DNA of 64,000 nucleotides from Elainella saxicola E1 (lineage in GTDB: Bacteria > Cyanobacteriota > Cyanobacteriia > Elainellales > Elainellaceae). The stretch covers positions 1-64,000 of the forward strand of contig LUGL01000067.1 in the NCBI GenBank assembly GCA_002796835.1, given 5' to 3'. Shown piece by piece: positions 4,316-16,400 of this stretch (position 1 is its first letter; each line of letters opens with the position of its first letter). A program made the translations under genes and the position numbers. Under the pieces are notes generated by a model, which was not told where the DNA came from, did not search any database, and saw only the letters and a program-made list of their open reading frames with translations.

Positions 4316-4705
4316 CTAGAGGCTAGCAATATAGCTGCGCCATCCACCCCATTCCGTAATTTCCTTTTGTTCCTGGCAAAGCAACGGTTCGCCTAACACT
4401 CCAAGAACAATATTGCCATCATTCAGTAAAACTTTGCCGATGCATAACCCCGGCGGTTCCTTTAAGAGGATTTCAGCGAGCCCTGAAGCAGGAACAGCCC
4501 AGATTTCCAGGGCGATCGATCGGCCCCCAAACTCAACTCGCATCATGGCCGGATGCCGATCTTGAATCGACCATAATCGATAGACTGGTGCGGTTGTGGC
4601 CTCCCGGATAAACTCAGCGCCCACTGCCTGCAAATTAGGATTGAGTTCCAGACCCCGCATCAACGTGCCATTTACTGCTAAGTCAATTCGTTGCTCAGAC
4701 TCCAT
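4316..4705 (-). CDS. Free-standing allophanate hydrolase C-terminal domain-like protein
   Basis: The 129 residues match the C-terminal domain of allophanate hydrolase (AtzF type), with the typical run [16 protein letters not shown] at the start and [34 protein letters not shown] and [13 protein letters not shown]. In full-length allophanate hydrolase this domain follows an amidase-signature domain and handles the N-carboxycarbamate intermediate; here the amidase half is absent and nothing in the window supplies it. The ATG at 4705 overlaps the 3' end of the preceding cysteine hydrolase gene by 11 bp, implying translational coupling. It is the last gene of the eight-gene nitrogen operon. Role by inference: a late step, or a binding/decarboxylation step, in breakdown of a ureide or amide. 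The domain match is firm; the reaction is not. Confidence 0.75.
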
Positions 4706-5396
4706 GCGTTACCCCTGCCACCGACCCCGCCTCTAATACCTGCAACACCGCTGTTGAGGCAGCAGTCCAGCCGACAATGCCGCCCTGGGCGCGAACCATT
4801 GCCAGAGTGGATTGCTTAAATTCGGGAAAATAACTTTCGGTGCAATCTTCGACAAGCAGACACTCATAGCCGCGATCGTTCGCTTCTCGCATGGTGGTTT
4901 GCACACATACTTCGGTCGTAACACCCGTGATCAACAGGTGGGTAATGCCGCGTTGTTGCAGTTCTGTCGCTAGTGGCGTTTGATAAAATGCACCCTTTCC
5001 AGGCTTGTGAATCACGATTTCACCGGGCAGTGGTTGCAGTTCCGGAATGATGTCGTTTCCTGGCTCTCCCTGCACCAAAATTCGTCCCATTGGACCCAAA
5101 TCGCCGATTGTCAGCGAGCCTTTGCCGCGTTTCAGTTTGGCAGGTGGACAATCGGATAGATCGGGCTGGTGACATTCCAGAGTATGCACGATCGGCAGTT
5201 TCAATTTGCGAAAGGCGCTAATTAGCTGTTGTAGCGCAGGCACGATCGCCTGGAGTCGCTCCACATCATTGCCCAATGCTGCCCCAAACCCACCGGGTTC
5301 CAGGAAGTCGCGCTGCATATCAATGATCACAAGCGCCAAATGCTGCAAATCAGCAGGCAGCTCATATTCGTAGGGCAGGGCAGCAATGGTACTCAT
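4695..5396 (-). CDS. Isochorismatase-fold cysteine amidohydrolase (biuret hydrolase-like), copy 1
   Basis: A 233-residue cytosolic enzyme of the cysteine hydrolase (isochorismatase-like) family. The triad is visible: Asp26 in [10 protein letters not shown], Lys131 in [11 protein letters not shown] and Cys164 in [20 protein letters not shown]. Sequence style ([36 protein letters not shown]) resembles biuret amidohydrolase and ureidoacrylate hydrolase RutB, which release ammonia or carbamate from ureide substrates. It is 30 bp downstream of the ABC ATPase gene and overlaps the next gene. A second, clearly related copy lies at 7114-7800, so the two may act on successive or different amides. Substrate cannot be decided by sequence; nicotinamidase-type activity is a less likely alternative. 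Confidence 0.75.
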
Positions 5397-5426: not shown

Positions 5427-6977
5427 TTAATGACCTGCCATGGCATGGCTGATCGCTGAAAAATCGGCGCTGGCGATCGGACTTTCATAGAGAAACTGCC
5501 CGCTGCTAATCACAATAATCCGATCGCTCAATTCCAGCAACTCATCCAAATCTTCGCTGACGAGCAGCACGGCCACCCCTCGGTTGCGCGCTTCTACGAT
5601 TTGAGCATGAATGAACTCAACTGCCGCAAAGTCCAGACCAAAACAAGGGTTGGCAGCGATCAGCAGGTTGATTTTTTCGCTAGAGAGTTCGCGGGCCAAA
5701 ACAGTCCGCTGCACATTGCCGCCGGAAAGATTATGTACGGGGGTTTCGATTGACGGAGTCTTGACCGAGAATTGTTGCACCAATCCTTTAGCGGCCTGCC
5801 GAATCGCGTTCAAAATCAGCCAGATGCCTTTAGCCTGCGGCGGCTGATCGAAGGTGCGCAAGGCCATATTTTCGGCCACGCTCATTTGGGGAATGCAGGC
5901 ATTCTTTAGCGGCTCCTCTGGCAAGGAAAAGACGCGATGCTTAAACATTTCTTTGCGGGTGGCCAGGTAGCGTTCGCCGTTAATTTTGATCTGGCCAGAT
6001 GTGGAAGGACGCTGTCCGGCCAACACTTCCACCAGCTCTTTTTGTCCATTGCCCGAAACGCCTGCGATCCCAACAATTTCGCCGCTGTTGACGGTCAAGC
6101 TAACATTATTGACGGCAACCAGGCCGTTATCTTTGTTGGCAGACAAATCGTGAACTTCCAGAACCGGGGTCACATCCTCTTGGGTGACCTTATCCACCAC
6201 TTTTAGCTCGCGTCGTTCTCCCATCATCATCTCAGCCATGTCGGCCACAGAGAGATCTTGGACCAAGCCATGTCCCACCAGTTGCCCCTTCCGCAACACC
6301 GTCACCTCTTCGGCAAATTGGGTGACTTCTCGAAACTTGTGGGTGATGATCAGCACACTTAAATCGCCTGCCTTCACCTGCTGCTGTAGCAATGACAAAA
6401 TTTCATCGGCTTCATCCGGCGTCAAGACTGAGGTTGGCTCATCCAAAATCAGAATCTTGCTCTCCAAATACAGCTGTTTCAAAATTTCCAGCTTTTGTTT
6501 TTGTCCTGCTGCAAGTTGGGCGATCGGCACATCTAACGGCACCTGAAAGGGAGAAGACTGCATAAAGTCGTCCAGCCGCTCCCGCTCTTTGGCCCAATTG
6601 ATTAAAAACTGCGATCCATCAAATCGAGATAGCACCAAATTTTCGGCTACCGTCATGGCAGGCACGGAAGTGAAATGCTGATAAACCATGCCGATTCCAT
6701 GATGGTGGGCATCTCTGGGACTGGCGATCGTACAGGGTGTGCCATCAATCTCGATTTCACCGTGATCAGGACTGTAGAAGCCCATAATGCACTTCACCAG
6801 AGTGCTTTTTCCGGCCCCATTCTCTCCTAGCAAGGCATGAAAAGTGCCTGGTTTCAAATGCAGCGACACCTGATCGAGGGCTACTAAACTGCCAAAGCGT
6901 TTGGTCATGCCCTTTACTTCCAATTCAGGCGGGCGTCTTACTGCGGTTGCTGTGGGTGCTGCGGTTGTGGTTGTCAT
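5427..6977 (-). CDS. Double ABC ATPase of a BMP/Nup-type importer
   Basis: A 516-residue ATPase with two ABC domains, the arrangement of the simple-sugar/nucleoside (NupO, YufO) class. Domain 1 has Walker A GENGAGKST (residues 51-59), signature LAAGQKQKLEI and Walker B LILDEPTSVLT. Domain 2 has a degenerate Walker A (GVSGNGQKE), signature LSGGNVQRTVLARE and a degenerate Walker B region (LLIAANPCFGLDF), as is usual for this class, so only the first site is expected to hydrolyse ATP efficiently. It should pair with the two permeases and the lipoprotein encoded upstream in the same operon. Family substrates are nucleosides and related small molecules; linkage to amidases suggests a nitrogen-rich small molecule here (inference). 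Confidence 0.85.
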   Translation of the reverse strand: MTTTTAAPTATAVRRPPELEVKGMTKRFGSLVALDQVSLHLKPGTFHALLGENGAGKSTLVKCIMGFYSPDHGEIEIDGTPCTIASPRDAHHHGIGMVYQHFTSVPAMTVAENLVLSRFDGSQFLINWAKERERLDDFMQSSPFQVPLDVPIAQLAAGQKQKLEILKQLYLESKILILDEPTSVLTPDEADEILSLLQQQVKAGDLSVLIITHKFREVTQFAEEVTVLRKGQLVGHGLVQDLSVADMAEMMMGERRELKVVDKVTQEDVTPVLEVHDLSANKDNGLVAVNNVSLTVNSGEIVGIAGVSGNGQKELVEVLAGQRPSTSGQIKINGERYLATRKEMFKHRVFSLPEEPLKNACIPQMSVAENMALRTFDQPPQAKGIWLILNAIRQAAKGLVQQFSVKTPSIETPVHNLSGGNVQRTVLARELSSEKINLLIAANPCFGLDFAAVEFIHAQIVEARNRGVAVLLVSEDLDELLELSDRIIVISSGQFLYESPIASADFSAISHAMAGH

Positions 6978-7113: not shown

Positions 7114-7800
7114 TCAAATTGTTGCGATGACTTCAAGCAAAGCCGCAGAGTCAGCAACAGCTCCAAACACACCTCCTTGCATCTGGATCATTTTTAAGGC
7201 AGCCAGGTGATTTCCATAGTCGGTTGCGCCTGTACAGTCAGACAGTAAAAGACATTCATAGCCGCGATCGTTCGCGTCCCGCATGGTGGTATGTACGCAA
7301 ACATCTGTGGTGATGCCGGTGAGAATGATGTTTTGAATGCCGTGTCGTTTCAGCAGCAAATCCAGATCGGTGGCATAGAAAGATCCTTTGCCCGGTTTGT
7401 CGATGATCGGTTCTCCCGGTAGCGGAGCCAATTCCGGAATAATTTCCCAGCCCGGTTCACCCCGCACCAAGATTTTGCCGCAAGGCCCCGGATCGCCAAT
7501 CCCTGCTCCAATTCGGCGCGATCGCCATTGTTTGTTTTCCGGCAGATCGGCTAAATCGGGGCGGTGGCCTTCGCGGGTATGCATGATGTGGAAACCCTTC
7601 GATCGCATCACGGCCAGCAGCTTTTGCAGGGGTTCGATCGGGGCACGGGTAAGCGACAGGTCATATCCCATCGCATCCACATAGCCGCCTTTGCCGCAAA
7701 AATCGGTCTGCATGTCGATAATCAACAGCACTGTATTTTCAGGCCGCAGGTCGCCATTGTAAGGATAGGGATAGGGTTCTGCTGTAATGAATCGTCCCAC
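7114..7800 (-). CDS. Isochorismatase-fold cysteine amidohydrolase (biuret hydrolase-like), copy 2
   Basis: A 228-residue paralogue of the enzyme at 4695. Triad residues are Asp29 ([10 protein letters not shown]), Lys135 ([12 protein letters not shown]) and Cys168 ([20 protein letters not shown]). The [10 protein letters not shown]-terminus and the [17 protein letters not shown] stretch resemble biuret hydrolase-like proteins linked to ureide metabolism. The start is GTG at 7800 with GGAG 11 bases upstream; an earlier in-frame ATG was not found. It lies 44 bp downstream of the formamidase gene in the same operon. Two divergent copies kept on either side of the ATPase gene suggest different substrates rather than simple dosage (inference). 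Exact substrate undetermined. Confidence 0.75.
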
Positions 7801-7844: not shown

Positions 7845-8864
7845 CTAGGGCGAAACGCGGGTTGGCAGTTCCTCCGGTTGATAGAGGCGAGTTGGGGCCG
7901 CAAAACCACAGGAAGTCCCGTCAGTGTGAACGACTTCATCTTCCCAGGGCAGCCGATAATTGCCGTTCACCAGATCCTTCATGTAGGTGTAGGGACAATC
8001 TTGTGCGCCTCCTTTCACGGCTACATAGCCACGATGCCCAAACTGGTAGATGTTATTTTCCACACTCCAATATTTACGCGCTTCCCGCACCAGATCGGGC
8101 CGCAATTCAGCCGTGATGATTTCATCGGGCCGGTGGCTACCCATCACCAGTGGCGTGCCATCAAAATTGACGAACATGCCTTCACCCATCGAATCAAACG
8201 AGCCATCCGTGCCGCACATGCAGACCGAAGCGGTGTAGATCAAATTACAAAATGCATTAGCCTGATTGGTGATTTGCCAGGTATGACGGATCGGAGCCGT
8301 GTAGCCTGCGGTGCGAATCATGATCTCAGCTCCCTTATAGGCACATTCTCGCGCCATTTCTGGGAACATACCGTCATGACAGATGATTAGAGCGATCGTA
8401 CTGCCATTCGGACCTTCGCATACGGGAATGCCCAAATTTCCGGGCTCCCAAGGTTCAACCGGTACCCAGGGATGCAGCTTACGGTAATAGAGTTTCAGCT
8501 CTCCTTTGTCGTCGATAATGATGCCACTGTTATAAGGATTGCCATGGGGATTATATTCCATGATGGAGAAGCAGCCCCAGATTTGATGATCGCGGCAGGC
8601 TTGCTGGAAGGCGGTCACTTCAGGGCCATCTAAGCGACACATGATCTCAGGATTGGTATCCATGGAGAGGCCATGCAGCGAATATTCTGGGAACACCACC
8701 AGATCCATCGTGGACATATTGCGGCGGGCTTTGCCAACCATGTCACAAATTCGCTGCGTTTGAGCGGCCAGGTCATCTGGCGTGACCACATTGGGCAACT
8801 GGAGTTGAACCAAACCAAGTACTACACCATTGGGTGATTTGTTTAAACCTCCGAGTCCACTCAT
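7845..8864 (-). CDS. amiF: Formamidase
   Basis: A 339-residue nitrilase-superfamily amidase, the length of Helicobacter formamidase AmiF (about 334). The catalytic Glu60 (VVFPEYS), Lys129 (YYRKLHPW) and Cys162 ([15 protein letters not shown]) are all present. Motifs [50 protein letters not shown] and [14 protein letters not shown] follow AmiF rather than aliphatic amidase AmiE, where the Cys motif reads ICDDGNYPEI. Expected reaction: formamide to formate and ammonia in the cytosol. It is preceded by a 153-bp gap that holds a hairpin repeat and follows three transporter genes, so ammonia release from imported amides is a reasonable role. Activity on other short amides is possible. Confidence 0.85.
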
Positions 8865-9017: not shown

Positions 9018-9956
9018 CTAAGCATCTTCTTGCCCAAGTGCCCCTGGTGCTCCTGTGAGCGTGCGTTGGGGAGAACAGGTCAGAATCATAATCACCAGCG
9101 TCAGGATATAGGGGGCTGCATTAAACAGGTAGTAACCCTCTTTGATGCCGACTGATTGCAGCGCTGGTCCCAATGCTTGAGCGCCACCAAACAGCAAGGA
9201 AGCCAAAAGACATTGCAGGGGATTCCACCGGGCAAAAATCACCAGCGCCACCGCCATCAAGCCCTGTCCACTGGAAATCCGCTCGGTCCAAACGCCGGGA
9301 TAATAAAGCGACAGAGAGGCTCCGCCAATTCCGGCTAAAAAGCTGCCTGCCATGACGCTGAGCATCCGCACTTTAAACGGGGAAATCCCCATGGCCCTCG
9401 CTGCTGCAGGACTGTCTCCCACCGCACGGATATAGAGGCCCCAGCGAGTTGAGCTAAAGAACCAGTGCAGGAACGGTGCCAGCAACGCCCCAAGAATAAA
9501 CAAGGGGCTAATTTTCAGGGCTGCTTCGACTGCCGGATTCTGACTCCAGCCTGCGAGATCGATCGTCGGCAATTGAGGCGCAGTTGGCTTAATGAACGGC
9601 TTGCCAAAGAAGAAAGCAAGACCGCTGCCAAAAATAATCATGGCAATGCCCACGGCGACATCATTGACGCGCGGCTGCTGAGAAAGCCAGCCATGAATTG
9701 CTCCTAATGCGAGACCAGAAATTCCAGCCACTAACACCCCTAACCAGGGCGATCCAGTGAGATAGGAAATGGCGTAAGCGCTCATGGCTCCCATCAGCAG
9801 CGTGCCTTCTAGACCAAGGTTAATTTTGCCGCTCTTTTCCGTCAGGCATTCCCCTAAACTGACAAACAGGAATGGAGTGCCGCCACGCATCGTACCCGCC
9901 AAAATGGCTAACAATACTCCCCACCATCCCAGGGCAGATTCTGCTGGACTACTCAT
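9018..9956 (-). CDS. ABC permease of the BMP/Nup-type importer (second subunit, NupQ-like)
   Basis: A 312-residue inner-membrane protein with about eight to nine hydrophobic helices. The motifs LGECLTEKSGKINLGLEGTL near residue 30, RAVGDSPAAARAMGIS and the GISPFKVRMLSVMAGSFLAG segment are those of the branched permease family used by simple-sugar and nucleoside importers (YufQ/NupQ-like). The start ATG at 9956 lies only 3 bp after the stop of the partner permease, so the two are co-translated. Together with the lipoprotein and double ATPase it forms one importer. The product acts in the plasma membrane; the solute is not predictable from the permease. Confidence 0.85.
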   Translation of the reverse strand: MSSPAESALGWWGVLLAILAGTMRGGTPFLFVSLGECLTEKSGKINLGLEGTLLMGAMSAYAISYLTGSPWLGVLVAGISGLALGAIHGWLSQQPRVNDVAVGIAMIIFGSGLAFFFGKPFIKPTAPQLPTIDLAGWSQNPAVEAALKISPLFILGALLAPFLHWFFSSTRWGLYIRAVGDSPAAARAMGISPFKVRMLSVMAGSFLAGIGGASLSLYYPGVWTERISSGQGLMAVALVIFARWNPLQCLLASLLFGGAQALGPALQSVGIKEGYYLFNAAPYILTLVIMILTCSPQRTLTGAPGALGQEDA

Positions 9957-9959
9957 GAT

Positions 9960-11063
9960 TTAGCTCCCTTGTGCGGTGACTGAGGTTGGTATAGCAGGCT
10001 GAGGCGCTGGTGGTAGGCGATCGGGCTTTTCCTTAAAGAAGGGCAGACGACCATAAAGTGAATCACTGTACAGCACGACCAAAAAGATGATGCCTTCGAA
10101 CACCAGCACTGTGGCATCGGGCAAACCATGCGATCGCTGCAAAATGCCGCCGCTGGCTAGAATCCCCCCAACCAAGAGCGACACTAGAATAGCTGCTAAA
10201 GGATTTTGGCGAGCCGCAAAAGCGACCAGAATTCCCCCATAGCCGTAGCCCACATTCAGCGATTCGTTGGCAGCTCCCTGTACGGCGGCAATCTCCACCA
10301 TGCCTGCTAAGCCAGCGCAAGAGCCCGCTAAGAAACAGATGGTCAGGGTGAGTTTGCCGACTGGCAGACCAGCTAAACGAGCTGCTCGCATGTTGCCTCC
10401 CGCAGCCCGGGTGGAAAAGCCAAAGGTCGTACGCTGAATCAGAAAATAGGCAATGACGCAGGCGATCAGTCCATAAACCAGGCCCCAGTGGACTCGCGTA
10501 CCAGGAATGTCACCCAACATGTTGATCTCAGCCAGCGGCGCAGTAGAAGGTTTGTTGAGTGAGTTCGGATCGCGCATTGGGCCACCGACCAAATGGTTCA
10601 AGATGGCGATCGCAATATAGTTCAGCAACAGACTGCTGATGGTTTCATTTACAGCGCGATAATGCCGCAATGCCCCGACAATGGCGATCCAGATGCCGCC
10701 CGCTCCCATGCCAGCCAATGCCATGAAGGATTGCACCCAGAAAGAGGGGACTGCAGTTCCGAGCGCTAAGCCCATCGACACGGCAGCCAATCCACCCATC
10801 ACGAGTGCGCCCTCATTGCCGATAATCACCAGCCCCAGGCGTGCAGGCAGCAATGTACATAAAGAGGACAGCATCAACGGAGCCGCCCGAATCAGCGTGT
10901 TTTGAAAGGTGTTCCAGCTACCAAAGGCCGCTTTCCAAATTGAGGCATAAACAGCAAAGGGATTTGCGCCGACAAAGCTGCAAAAGAGGCCAAACAGCAG
11001 CAACCCAAACAGAATTGCGGCGATCGGAATGCAGATCGATTCAAGCGTTTTGCGAAGTGCCAT
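9960..11063 (-). CDS. ABC permease of the BMP/Nup-type importer (first subunit, NupP-like)
   Basis: A polytopic permease of 367 residues (ATG at 11063). The frame extends to a TTG at 11132, but that start would lie inside the preceding gene and adds a non-hydrophobic leader; the ATG begins MALRKTLESICIPIAAILFG, leading straight into the first membrane helix as expected. Visible family motifs include the LVIIGNEGALVMGGLAAVSM region, LLNYIAIAILNHLVGGPMRD and the cytoplasmic loop RAAGGNMRAARLAGLPVGK that contacts the ATPase. The last helices are followed by a proline-rich tail. It pairs with the permease at 9018. Identification as an importer permease is firm; start choice is moderate. Confidence 0.85.
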   Translation of the reverse strand: MALRKTLESICIPIAAILFGLLLFGLFCSFVGANPFAVYASIWKAAFGSWNTFQNTLIRAAPLMLSSLCTLLPARLGLVIIGNEGALVMGGLAAVSMGLALGTAVPSFWVQSFMALAGMGAGGIWIAIVGALRHYRAVNETISSLLLNYIAIAILNHLVGGPMRDPNSLNKPSTAPLAEINMLGDIPGTRVHWGLVYGLIACVIAYFLIQRTTFGFSTRAAGGNMRAARLAGLPVGKLTLTICFLAGSCAGLAGMVEIAAVQGAANESLNVGYGYGGILVAFAARQNPLAAILVSLLVGGILASGGILQRSHGLPDATVLVFEGIIFLVVLYSDSLYGRLPFFKEKPDRLPPAPQPAIPTSVTAQGS

Positions 11064-11112: not shown

Positions 11113-12312
11113 CTAGCTGCCGATCGAACCAATCACTCCTTCCACGAGGTAATTCATCTCCTCCAGCTTCGGATCTTGTTGCTTCAGCGAGGTGCCAGCG
11201 GGGATGACGACATTTCCCTTGTTGTCTTTAATTTCTCCGGTATAAATCACCATGCTGCCGTCCATGAATTTGGCTTTTGCAGCTTCTGCGGCTTTCTTGG
11301 TGTCTGAGCTGACGGCAGGTCCATAATCCGACACTTTACAGAAGCCATCCTTGAGGCCACCGCGCAGCAGGTGAGGAATGTCACCACTCATCAGGGTTTT
11401 ACCCGATTTAATGTCGGTCAGCAGTTTCGTGTAGATATTGGCCCAGTCCCATTCAGCCCCGGTCAGGTAGCCTTTGGGAGCCAAAGCAGACTGGTTGGCG
11501 TGATAGCCCGAGCAGAAAATCCCGCGTTTCTCGGCGGTTTCCATCACCACTTTAGGACTGTCCACATGGCAGGTCAGCACATCGACATCCTGGTCAGCCA
11601 TGCTGTTAGCCGCTTCTGCTTCCTTCAAGGGCAATGACCAATCTCCAGTAAAGATCACCTGGGTTGTGACGTCGGGGTTAACGCTCTTGGCACCAAGGGT
11701 AAAGCTATTAATGTTGCGTAATACTTGCGGAATCGGTTTAGCTGCAACGAAGCCAAGTTTGCCTGTTTTTGAAGTAGAACCCGCGACGATACCAGCGATG
11801 TATTGGGCTTCGTCGATATAGCCAAAATAGCTGCCGACGTTTTTCGGGTGAGTACCTTCTTTGTAGAGACCACCACAGTGGAAAAACTGCACATCTGGGT
11901 ACTCCTGGGCCATTTTGAGAATGTGGGGATCAAAATAGCCGAACGAGGTGGGAAAGAGCACCTTTGCTCCGTCAATGTCGATCATGCTGCGCATGGATTC
12001 AGTGACTGCTGTCGTTTCCGGCACGCTGGCTTCTTCTACCAATTTCACCCAGGTCAGTGCTTTTGTTAAACCAGCCGCCCCTTCTGCATGGGCCTGATTA
12101 TATCCATAGTCATCTTTCGGTCCGACGTAGATGAAGCCAACGGTCATCTGCTCGCCATCCCCTGACCCAGCATTTGCCCCTGCATCAGCCTGTCCTGAGG
12201 TGCTTGCGGTGCAGCCCGTTCCAAATTTGGTCGTCACCCCAAAGGCCGTAGCAGCTAACAGCCCTCGAACAATTTGCCGACGAGATAGATGAAACAGTTT
12301 CTCTTGACTCAC
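11113..12312 (-). CDS. BMP-family substrate-binding lipoprotein
   Basis: The solute receptor of the importer, BMP/PnrA type (basic membrane protein). The start is GTG at 12312: AGGAG lies 7 bases upstream, far better than the TTG at 12339 that gives the longest frame. The N-terminus SRRQIVRGLLAATAFG (Arg11-Arg12) looks like a twin-arginine-type signal, ending in a lipobox-like FGTGC with Cys34, followed by a Ser/Gly/Ala linker. The mature part carries family motifs GFIYVGPKDDYGYNQAH, FPTSFGYFDPHI, NVGSYFGYIDEAQYIAGIVAG and GYLTGAEWDWANIY. It is first in the operon, directly downstream of the NtcA box at 12486. BMP proteins usually bind nucleosides; here the neighbouring amidases suggest another N-rich ligand. 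Confidence 0.85.
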   Translation of the reverse strand: MSQEKLFHLSRRQIVRGLLAATAFGVTTKFGTGCTASTSGQADAGANAGSGDGEQMTVGFIYVGPKDDYGYNQAHAEGAAGLTKALTWVKLVEEASVPETTAVTESMRSMIDIDGAKVLFPTSFGYFDPHILKMAQEYPDVQFFHCGGLYKEGTHPKNVGSYFGYIDEAQYIAGIVAGSTSKTGKLGFVAAKPIPQVLRNINSFTLGAKSVNPDVTTQVIFTGDWSLPLKEAEAANSMADQDVDVLTCHVDSPKVVMETAEKRGIFCSGYHANQSALAPKGYLTGAEWDWANIYTKLLTDIKSGKTLMSGDIPHLLRGGLKDGFCKVSDYGPAVSSDTKKAAEAAKAKFMDGSMVIYTGEIKDNKGNVVIPAGTSLKQQDPKLEEMNYLVEGVIGSIGS

Positions 12313-12485
12313 TGGTTGACTCCTAGTAACAAAACACAAGCAACAGGCACAGTATGAGAAGCGTATTAATCGCTACTGTCAACTCGCCCAACGGTGAAGC
12401 AGGGCTGGCAGGGATAGACTGATGTTGCTCTCCCCTAATCGGGAGTTGTAACTGTACTTATCCACCAACTACCTAACCAAAAACG

Positions 12486-12499
12486 GTAGTGAAGGCTAC
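12486..12499 (-). promoter_or_regulatory. NtcA-binding palindrome upstream of the nitrogen operon
   Basis: The sequence GTAGTGAAGGCTAC fits the NtcA consensus GTA-N8-TAC exactly. It lies 173 bp upstream of the first gene of the operon. On the minus strand a possible -10 element, TAAGTA (12460-12455), follows 25 bp after the box, slightly longer than the usual spacing for NtcA-activated promoters; TACAGT follows at 29 bp. NtcA is the global nitrogen activator of cyanobacteria, so induction under nitrogen limitation is the inferred control. Confidence 0.6.
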
Positions 12500-13425
12500 A
12501 TTTGTCCAAACAGTTTGACGAGAATCCGATAGAAATTTAACTTTTATGCCACATAACTCTTGATAAAAAGTCTCAATTCAACACAGATGCTTTGACGCTG
12601 ATGGCGACTCAATGGCAGTTCACAATTAGTTCACAATTAAAAGAGGTTGCCAGTCGTTTTTAATCAGGTCTTTCATTGAAAGTCAGAGGCTTTAAAAGTG
12701 TGATTCGCAGGTTGCCCCTTCAGCGATCGATCTGGGTGGTTTACGGTTGGGCGATTTACGGTTTGATCAAGTCACTTTCAGGCGATCGTCAGTTTTTCGA
12801 TCGGATTATGCCTAATCCTGGGGAACGAAAAGTCAATAAAAGCAGGATCTTTTGTGGGGTAGACATTTTGTCCGCCCAGACAGCTCAAGAAACCCATGCC
12901 CCATGATTGAATCTACAACCCCTGGTTTGTATCAATACTCAGCGAGCTAACAGAAAGGGGTGAAAGACGAACTAATTGTGAGTGTCGAAGTCAAAATGGG
13001 AATGATAAAAGTTTTGACAGAAATAATTCCAGATGCAGAATTTTGTCGACGCCAATATCAACAGCTAAATCAACAGTATGGTGAATAGATCGCTTGATAG
13101 AAAGCGATTCTTCTCAGTAATTTCAACGATCTTTTACGTTTTTGCAACAAATAACAGGTCTTAAGAACAGGGCTTACCACACTGGAAGCGGCTTTCAGTA
13201 AGGGCTGGAGAGGATTTCAAGCATTCCTTTCTTGATCGAAGACTGTACTAATGTCCGGATAGCAGATGGCTGTCCTGAAGAATGGTTCTAGAGATCGATG
13301 GGTGGGCTAGTTCGTGACTCTAGAGGCATTAGCAAAATTGAGTGCAAAATGCTCATCTGCGGTCACTGTAAAAAAATATTTCTGACATTCCGTTATCCAC
13401 AAGACTAAGGGGTTCCCAACTTCAG
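12500..13425. other. Long intergenic region before the hybrid kinase
   Basis: More than 900 bp without a convincing gene. It holds hairpin repeat copy B (12852-12893) and a 42-codon frame at 12960-13088 (GTG start, ending QYQQLNQQYGE) that could be the tail of a decayed gene, as the predicted ribosome-binding site is too close to the start. No RNA gene was recognised. The promoter of the kinase gene should lie in the last 200 bp. Confidence 0.4.
12852..12893. repeat. Dispersed hairpin repeat, copy B
   Basis: Matches copy A (8950-8990) base for base over most of 40 bp: TTGTGGGGT, GACAT, TTGTCCGCCC, GACAG and TCAAGAAACC are shared. The stem GGGTAGACA/TGTCCGCCC contains one mismatch here. Copies A and B bracket the three transporter genes of the nitrogen operon. 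Confidence 0.7.
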
Positions 13426-16400
13426 GTGTTGCAAATATTCCCTATGAGACAAACCCACTTGCATCAGCAATCGCTCTACGCCAATCGTCCTCTCTCGCTT
13501 CTCCAATTTAGGTTGATAACATTGGCGGTAATGGTCATCTACTACAGTGCTGCGAAACTCAGTAGCTTGGTGGCACTGCCTATGCCACCCGGCAATGTAT
13601 CCGCAGTTTGGCTGCCTGCGTCGATCGCATGGGCTGCAATCTTCACGATTGGTTATCGAGCCTGGTGGGGGATTGGCTTGGCTGATGCCCTGTTTGGTTT
13701 ACAGGGTTTGGCGAACAGTGCAGATTTAACTATCCCGGCAGTTCTTGCCAGTCTATCCAGCTCAGCAGGGAATACCTTAGAAGCAGTGGTTGCAGTGTTT
13801 TTAGTTCGGCGATGGAGCCAGAGTGGTTATCCGTTCGATCGGGCCAGGGATGTCTTCCAATTTTTGCTGATTGTTTTGCTGTGTCCCGCAGTGAACGCAG
13901 CCTGGGGCGTGAGTAGCTTCTGTTTGAGTGGTTTATCCGATTGGGCAGATTTTGCAACGCTGTGGCACACTTGGTGGACGGGAAATGCTGTGAGTGTCCT
14001 CGCTTTTCTGCCGCTGCTGTTGAGCTGGAAACGCGAGACCTTCCGGACGCTACAGCCAAAGCAAGTGGTGGAAGGCGCTTTTGTTTTAGGGGTTGTGCTG
14101 AGCATTAGCAAAGTCGCCTTTAGCTGGGGCTATCCGATCGAATATTTACTGATTTCCTGTTTGGTTTGGGCTGCCTTTCGTCTGGGTAAACCGATGGCGA
14201 CCTTAGGAATCGCGATCGTTTCCTGCCTCGTGCTTTGGGCAACGGTGCATAATCGAGGTATCTTTGCGCGTCCCTCGCTGAATGAATCCCTCTTACTCGT
14301 GCAGGCATTTGTAGGAGTGGTCTCAGTTACAACCCTGGTAGTTACCGCGATTTTGCAGGAACGGCAGCAATCTCAGCGCAAGTTGAGAGAAAGTGACAAT
14401 CACTATCGTTCAGTGGTGAATCAACTCAAAGAGGTGGTTTTCCAAACGGATACTAATGGGTGTTGGACATTTCTCAATCCAGCCTGGACGGAAATTACAG
14501 GGTTTACGATCGAAGAAACGGTAGGCACTTCCGTGCTGGACTATATTTATCCTGGCGATCGCCAGCTAGATTTAGAGAAGTTTCAGCCCTTATTTAAACA
14601 GAAAAAGGAATATTGTCGGCACGAAATTCGCTATATTACCAAGGATAATTCTTTCCGCTGGCTCGAAGTTTTTGCCTGCCTTACGCTCGACCCCAATGGC
14701 AAAATTTTAGGAACCTCTGGCACCCTCACCGATATTACAGAACGCAAGCAGGCCCAAATGGCGCTCATCGAAAGTCAGAAACGGCTTCAGCTGGCGTTGA
14801 CCTGTGCTTGTATGGGCACATGGGAATGGAATATGGTGACGAATATTGAAACTTGGTCGGCAGAAACAAGCGCTCTGTTCGGATTGGCCCCTGGCACCTT
14901 CCCTGGCACTTACGAAGCATTCCTGGAGATTATCCATCCAGAAGACCGGGCTGCCATAACTCAGGCCCAAACCACTTCTCTAGATAATGGTGGTCAATAT
15001 CGCTCTGAATATCGGGTCCGCCGTTCCGGTGGAGGCTTCCGCTGGTTATGCAGCGTGGGTAATTATTTATATGACAGTGAAGGTCAAGCAAATCGCCTCG
15101 TTGGCATTACGATGGATGTAACAGAGCGTAAACAGGCAGAAGCGGCGCTGCAAGAAAGTGAACGACGGTTTCGGACACTGGCTAGTTTTGCGCCTGTCGG
15201 CATCTTTCTCTCCAATGCCCAAGGGCAGTTCACCTATGTGAACGATCGGTGGTGTGAACTGACGCGGCTCATCCCCGAACAAGCTTGTGCAGATAATTGG
15301 CTGAAGGCTTTGCATCCAGAAGACCGTGAACGAGTTGCGGTGGCATGGAGCAATGCAGCTCAATTAGAGCAGGAATTTGCCTTGGAATACCGCTTTTTGC
15401 GTCCCGATGGTTCCGAAGTATGGGTGTTCGGGCAGGCGTCTCCAATGCGCGATCAGGCAGGAGCAATCACTGGTTTTATTGGCACAATTAATGACATTAC
15501 CGATCAAAAACAAGCTGAAAAAGCGCTCCAGCAAAGTAATCAACTCCTACATGCAGTCAGCGATATTCAGTCCCAATTCATTGCAGATGTCGAACCTCGC
15601 ATGTTGTTCGATGCCTTACTGGATAATTTGCTGGAGCTGACTCAAAGCGCCTATGGTTTTACCAGTGAAATTCTCTATGCTGCCGATGGAACGACTTCCG
15701 TGGAAGCAGCTCATATGAAAATGCGAGGCAGACCCTACCTCAAAACCTATTCTGTTACGAATATTGCCTGGAATGAGGAAACCTGTGCCCTTTATGCAGA
15801 ACAATCGCCTAAAGGGATGGAGTTCCATAATCTTCAAACCCTGTTTGGGGCAGTAATCATGACGGGTAAACCGGTCATTTCTAACTCACCTGCTACCGAT
15901 CCCCGCCGAGGTGGCCTACCCGAAGGACATCCCCCGCTCAATGCATTTTTAGGTCTACCACTCTATCAAAATAATGTGTTGATTGGCATGGTTGCGGTCG
16001 CTAACCGATCGGGCGGATATGATGAAGCGTTAGTGGAACATCTGCAGCCTTTCTTGGCCACTTGCGCGAATATTATGGCAGCATATCGTAACGATCGCCG
16101 TCGGCAACAGGTAGAAGCGGCGCTGCAACAGCAATTACAACAAACTTTGTTACTGAAGCAAATCACTGAAGAGATTCGTCAAAGTCTGAACAGTAAACAA
16201 ATTTTTGAAACGGCTTCACTTCAGATTGGTCATGCGTTTCGAGTGAATCGCTGTTGCATTCGCACTTATATTACGGAACCATTACCTTTAATGCCTGTAG
16301 TTGCTGAATATTTGGAACCGGGGTATCACTCGATCGCCCATTTGCCTATTCCCATGGTGAAGAATCCCTATACAAAGCGACTGTTAAACCAGGATCCAGC

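Follow-up and report, generated by a model that had tools for sequence, protein, structure and literature searches.

The perfect palindrome GTA-N8-TAC at positions 12486-12499 of the DNA analysed here (Elainella saxicola E1, contig LUGL01000067.1, 1-64,000, forward strand; this whole stretch of 64 kb is called the window) is likely to be a site for NtcA, a CRP-family protein which senses 2-oxoglutarate and acts as the nitrogen regulator in cyanobacteria. Through this site a putative operon for the scavenging of triuret and biuret would be activated when nitrogen is short. The forward-strand letters, GTAGTGAAGGCTAC, were found at exactly the coordinates given in a preliminary description of this DNA. 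The palindrome sits 173 nt 5' of the GTG at which the leading gene of a leftward operon probably starts, and it probably functions as an NtcA box in a promoter of non-canonical form. NtcA binding, the direction of control, the start site and the transported substrate are what we infer from comparisons of sequences.

Triuret and biuret are nitrogen-rich compounds which stem from oxidised urate breakdown and occur as impurities in urea fertiliser. If the proposed control is real, they would serve filamentous cyanobacteria as a nitrogen source under regulatory control, and the NtcA regulon would gain a triuret/biuret scavenging operon. Among the papers searched, none joined NtcA, cyanobacteria and biuret, and none joined "biuret hydrolase" with cyanobacteria.

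The operon and its predicted enzymes

Table 1. Features of the gap and of the leftward gene group (positions in the window)
Feature	Position	Strand	Basis or remarks
Putative NtcA box	12486..12499	-	Reads GTAGCCTTCACTAC on operon strand; perfect GTAN8TAC
-10-like region GATAAGTA	12455..12462	-	GATAAG 23 nt, or TAAGTA 25 nt, 3' of box
Second perfect GTAN8TAC, GTATTAATCGCTAC	12363..12376	-	Within predicted 5' untranslated leader
Substrate-binding lipoprotein, BMP/PnrA-type ABC transporter, first gene	11113..12312	-	PF02608, 138.8 bits; GTG start
ABC permease A	9960..11063	-	PF02653, 96.8 bits
ABC permease B	9018..9956	-	PF02653, 144.3 bits
Formamidase (AmiF type)	7845..8864	-	NF009803, 578.8 bits (cut-off 406)
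Biuret amidohydrolase BiuH	7114..7800	-	NF050097, 418.1 bits (cut-off 370); PDB 6azo, 418.6 bits
ABC ATPase, two nucleotide-binding domains	5427..6977	-	PF00005, two stretches
Putative triuret hydrolase (TrtA type)	4695..5396	-	PDB 6xix, 290.3 bits; TrtA diagnostic residues
Stand-alone allophanate-hydrolase C-terminal domain (AH_C)	4316..4705	-	PF21986, 137.2 bits

Eight minus-strand genes, from 12312 to 4316, lie downstream of a gap of about 1.1 kb (Table 1); their order and spacing, with the last two overlapping by 11 bases, suggest one operon. On the other side of the gap, from 13426, a hybrid histidine kinase gene points away. The GTG at 12312-12310 is preceded by AGGAG; GTG was the assigned start of the first gene in many relatives as well. 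By their family scores the genes serve nitrogen scavenging, which bears out the earlier statement that a nitrogen-related operon lies just downstream of the palindrome.

The enzymes were named from family scores together with diagnostic residues, and the hydrolysis of triuret is putative. The BiuH gene reaches the NCBIfam equivalog score and possesses the BiuH consensus residues. The second isochorismatase-like hydrolase (4695..5396) obtained 249.9 bits on the BiuH model, below the cut-off of 370, and is nearest to PDB 6xix, with 290.3 bits versus 211 for the biuret hydrolase 6xjm. The entry 6XIX is the triuret hydrolase TrtA of Herbaspirillum (PMC7948467); the residues named in that source as separating TrtA from BiuH include D24, F29, K129, K132, C162 and F35, N41, A134, E160, Y187, Q202, I205. 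All of them were read off the alignment in the protein from the window, which thus shares the catalytic and the discriminating residues that PMC7948467 gives for the Herbaspirillum enzyme, although the putative TrtA of the window is encoded in a transporter operon and in a phototrophic host. The set was present, as scored by script, in 24 of 24 relatives for the TrtA-type gene; the BiuH set was present in 30 of 30 BiuH-type relatives scored, with T or S at the position of Y187.

For the last step, no complete allophanate hydrolase was detected over the model cut-off in the genome. Its best match to the model is an amidase-like stretch (G000:C21:33768-35288) interrupted by two TAG and one TAA; this may reflect gene decay or the joining of matches. 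An AtzE-family amidohydrolase (705 bits, cut-off 461), encoded elsewhere in the genome, is possibly linked to carboxybiuret breakdown. The nitrifier clusters described in PMC12625717 (bmpA-nupABC / biuH / trtA / trtB / atzF) likewise hold hydrolases of the BiuH and TrtA types beside an ABC transporter of the BMP type. As far as that source describes these clusters, the window differs in being cyanobacterial, in having a formamidase, a stand-alone AH_C domain and an NtcA box upstream, and in lacking atzF in the operon.

The fmdA gene of Arthrospira, which is raised in nitrogen limitation, was considered as a parallel to the operon formamidase and rejected, since it is listed as COG2421; the formamidase of the window is a CN_hydrolase. 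AmiF presumably represents a formamidase family other than COG2421.

NtcA-type boxes before orthologous operons

Taken alone, the palindrome is weak evidence, and its significance within the single sequence is modest. The 14-mer occurs once in the whole genome of 8.70 Mb; the window holds five GTAN8TAC sites versus 3.15 expected, and five or more were obtained in 22 of 100 shuffles. It had been described as the only such site seen in the intergenic regions inspected, but an equally perfect one lies in the same gap (Table 1). Under a motif learned from relatives (see below), the score of 12486-12499 was equalled in 92 of 3000 cases when the 300 bp upstream were shuffled, in 131 of 3000 for 600 bp upstream, and in 196 of 1500 when the gap was taken in full and both strands were scored; across the window, four other places score higher and 12486 ranks fifth. 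Such numbers would suit a palindrome which arose by chance, with the real promoter elsewhere in the 1.1-kb gap and NtcA inactive here; this appears unlikely when relatives are considered, and it is they, not the window alone, which supply the excess over chance.

A search of 386 cyanobacterial genomes detected the binding protein in 23, the genome of the window among them. The best match had at least 65% identity in 15 of these; in the other eight it had 33-35%, and these BMP proteins were left out as a different subfamily. The 15 genomes contained 17 places, seven of which (window included) showed GTAN8TAC no more than 250 bp from where the match begins. From a scan across named genomes, 80 loci were kept out of 308 confirmed, with start codons assigned by script; some of the 15 genomes recur in this set, and the two sets were not summed. 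Together with the window, 81 upstream regions were available, reduced to 76 following dereplication by shared 12-mers (L038, L059, L069, L092 and L098 were dropped); this was the only dereplication, and the relatives are not independent of one another.

In the 250 bp immediately before the orthologous first gene, GTAN8TAC was present in 15 of 75 regions (without the window), versus a mean of 1.9 and a maximum of 6 in 300 dinucleotide shuffles of these regions. The corresponding values were 27 of 75 for TGTN10ACA (shuffle mean 3.1, maximum 9), which is the NtcA box read one base further out, and 35 of 75 for either strict box (mean 4.8, maximum 11). Perfect boxes are hence about eightfold over chance, which argues against a fortuitous palindrome, and about one eighth of such matches would be expected by chance. 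As background, 104 of 4662 windows of 250 bp taken elsewhere in these loci contained GTAN8TAC (2.2%). When 1344 combinations of half-site and spacer (64 x 21) were ranked, TGT-N10-ACA came first (27/76); the GTA half-site gave 16 of 76 with a spacer of 8, versus 1 to 10 with every other spacer from 0 to 20.

The enrichment is distinct, though not universal. No strict box was present within 250 bp in 40 of the 75 relatives, and its position differs among those which have one. L035, which is closest to the window among the relatives found (its first gene has 80% identity), showed none within 1500 bp, which speaks for a chance origin. A strict box was present in 19 of 33 regions with a recognisable hydrolase gene at the locus and in 16 of 42 without, contig ends included. 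At the locus of Microcoleus sp. FACHB-1515 the box occurs together with BiuH, a TrtA-type gene and AH_C. In another relative (L040:8626-11187) the binding protein gene is present in two tandem copies, with 75% and 71% identity to that of the window.

The genome encodes one clear NtcA (390.6 bits, cut-off 244.95). The earlier designation of the palindrome as an NtcA-type box is supported by the presence of ntcA and by the enrichment before orthologous operons; since the relatives carry the same kind of site, nitrogen hunger probably switches the operon on. Besides NtcA there are nine further CRP-family matches in the genome, and relative L058 carries TGTGATGTTTCTCACA, so that a different member of the family, of the cAMP-CRP type or another, could be thought to bind the box. 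This is quite improbable: GTG-N8-CAC was found in 4 of 75 regions and the CRP-type TGTGA-N6-TCACA in 1 of 75, versus 15 of 75 for GTA-N8-TAC; the function of the operon is nitrogen scavenging; and in the relatives the distance from boxes with up to one mismatch to a following TAN3T peaks at 22 nt (8/76, versus 0-4 at any other distance between 8 and 44), the spacing of the boxes of the organism's own urtA and glnA.

Perfect boxes with TAN3T, the canonical form, were present upstream of its own urtA (N22), glnA (N22) and ntcA (N24). The site before ntcA (L002:1238-1251) reads GTAATTCTTGCTAC-N24-TAGTGT, which suggests autoregulation of ntcA. Two of three amt genes have a perfect box, with no TAN3T at spacers of 19-27, and one has no box within 600 bp; no box was detected within 600 bp of the match for a second glnA-like gene.

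Form of the predicted promoter and leader

NtcA as activator would act as follows. Under nitrogen shortage 12486-12499 would be occupied by a dimer of NtcA, which would bring RNA polymerase to a weak promoter with its -10 region within GGATAAGTA (12463-12455, minus strand, downstream of the box); transcription would proceed from about position 12451, leftward through the eight genes, whose products would take up triuret, biuret or similar amides and release ammonia from them by hydrolysis. The start was computed from a box centred at -41.5.

The 25 nt between TAC and TAAGTA noted in the preliminary description were confirmed. TAAGTA is not of the TAN3T type, and TACAGT, which fits, is present only at N29; the site therefore departs from a canonical class II NtcA promoter, in which a TAN3T -10 region lies about 22-24 nt downstream. 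The window is not among the box-plus-TAN3T matches described above, and its palindrome was classed as an NtcA box whose promoter is non-canonical. The lack of TAN3T at the usual spacing would fit a chance palindrome. With the canonical NtcA-activated promoters (urtA, nirA, glnA; PMC3898017, a ChIP-seq study of Anabaena) it shares the perfect GTAN8TAC before a nitrogen-acquisition operon; their -10 region is TAN3T, whereas the window has GGATAAGTA with TAAGTA 25 nt away, and the genes it would control form a putative triuret/biuret operon. PMC9430850 includes NtcA promoters predicted with deviant -10 boxes; thus the form proposed here has precedents, as predictions.

A further argument against chance is GGATAAG, which follows a perfect box at 22 nt in the window and at 21 nt in L050 and L078 (23 and 22 nt, respectively, if GATAAG is read); this comparison was made after the fact, with the sequences already seen. 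GGATAAG was present in 5 of 81 upstream regions, three of which are these, and is rare, with 39 occurrences on one strand in the 1.24 Mb of these loci covered by the count. A sigma-70 promoter scan gave one match in the gap, on the opposite strand. Genome-wide, GTAN8TAC-N22-TAN3T yielded 10 + 10 matches, including the urtA and glnA sites, versus 31 + 30 for a reversed control; since the control outnumbers the real pattern, this count is uninformative alone.

With a predicted start at about 12451 the leader would be 139 nt long and would contain the second palindrome. This site could be taken to mean that NtcA represses the operon or works mainly via 12363-12376, and repression of rbcL and gor via boxes 3' of the -35 region is described in PMC3898017. 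Such a role is the least probable of the explanations considered, a very slight one: the second palindrome scores 2.5 under the relatives' motif versus 8.8 at 12486, no TAN3T follows it at spacers of 15-33, and there would be little point in shutting off scavenging genes while nitrogen is scarce. It is probably a chance occurrence or a minor site. A leader RNA of a known class, such as a riboswitch, was rejected, as Rfam gave no match in the window at gathering scores and none in 12300-13500 at E values up to 5.

Motifs learned from the relatives

An expectation-maximisation search was carried out with the window left out, using 250 random seeds and, in addition, a run seeded with the NtcA box. 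The random seeds led to two kinds of motif, cTTTT.cCaAtcCTT (best, 204.9) and the NtcA-like tGTa...tACA (168.0 and below); the former is perhaps the -10 region of the Nodosilinea group. The NtcA-seeded motif converged, and its best match in the 600 bp 5' of the first gene of the window was 12486, followed by a score of 4.6. The lack of a better match in this upstream region is another point against a palindrome of chance origin.

Ahead of the first gene of L041, L043, L055, L059, L064, L073 and L074, two or three direct repeats of [TC]CG[AC]AC[CT]TTT with a spacing of exactly 11 bp were observed 3' of the NtcA-like box; the 600 bp before the first gene of the window contain no copy. We take these repeats to resemble sites of OmpR/PhoB-type response regulators. 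The scales are evenly balanced for a wider proposal, in which NtcA would directly control a complete triuret/biuret uptake-and-hydrolysis operon and a second regulator, acting on the 11-bp direct repeats, would join in some relatives. The divergent upstream genes of L054 and L049 were rejected as regulators, since they encode WD40-repeat proteins according to Pfam, with no DNA-binding domain among the best 25 families.

The strongest de novo motif appears as a conserved cTTTTaccaattCTTa about 15-30 nt past the NtcA-like box in L084, L088, L105 and further loci of the Nodosilinea type, in which no genes beyond those for the binding protein and the permeases could be recognised.
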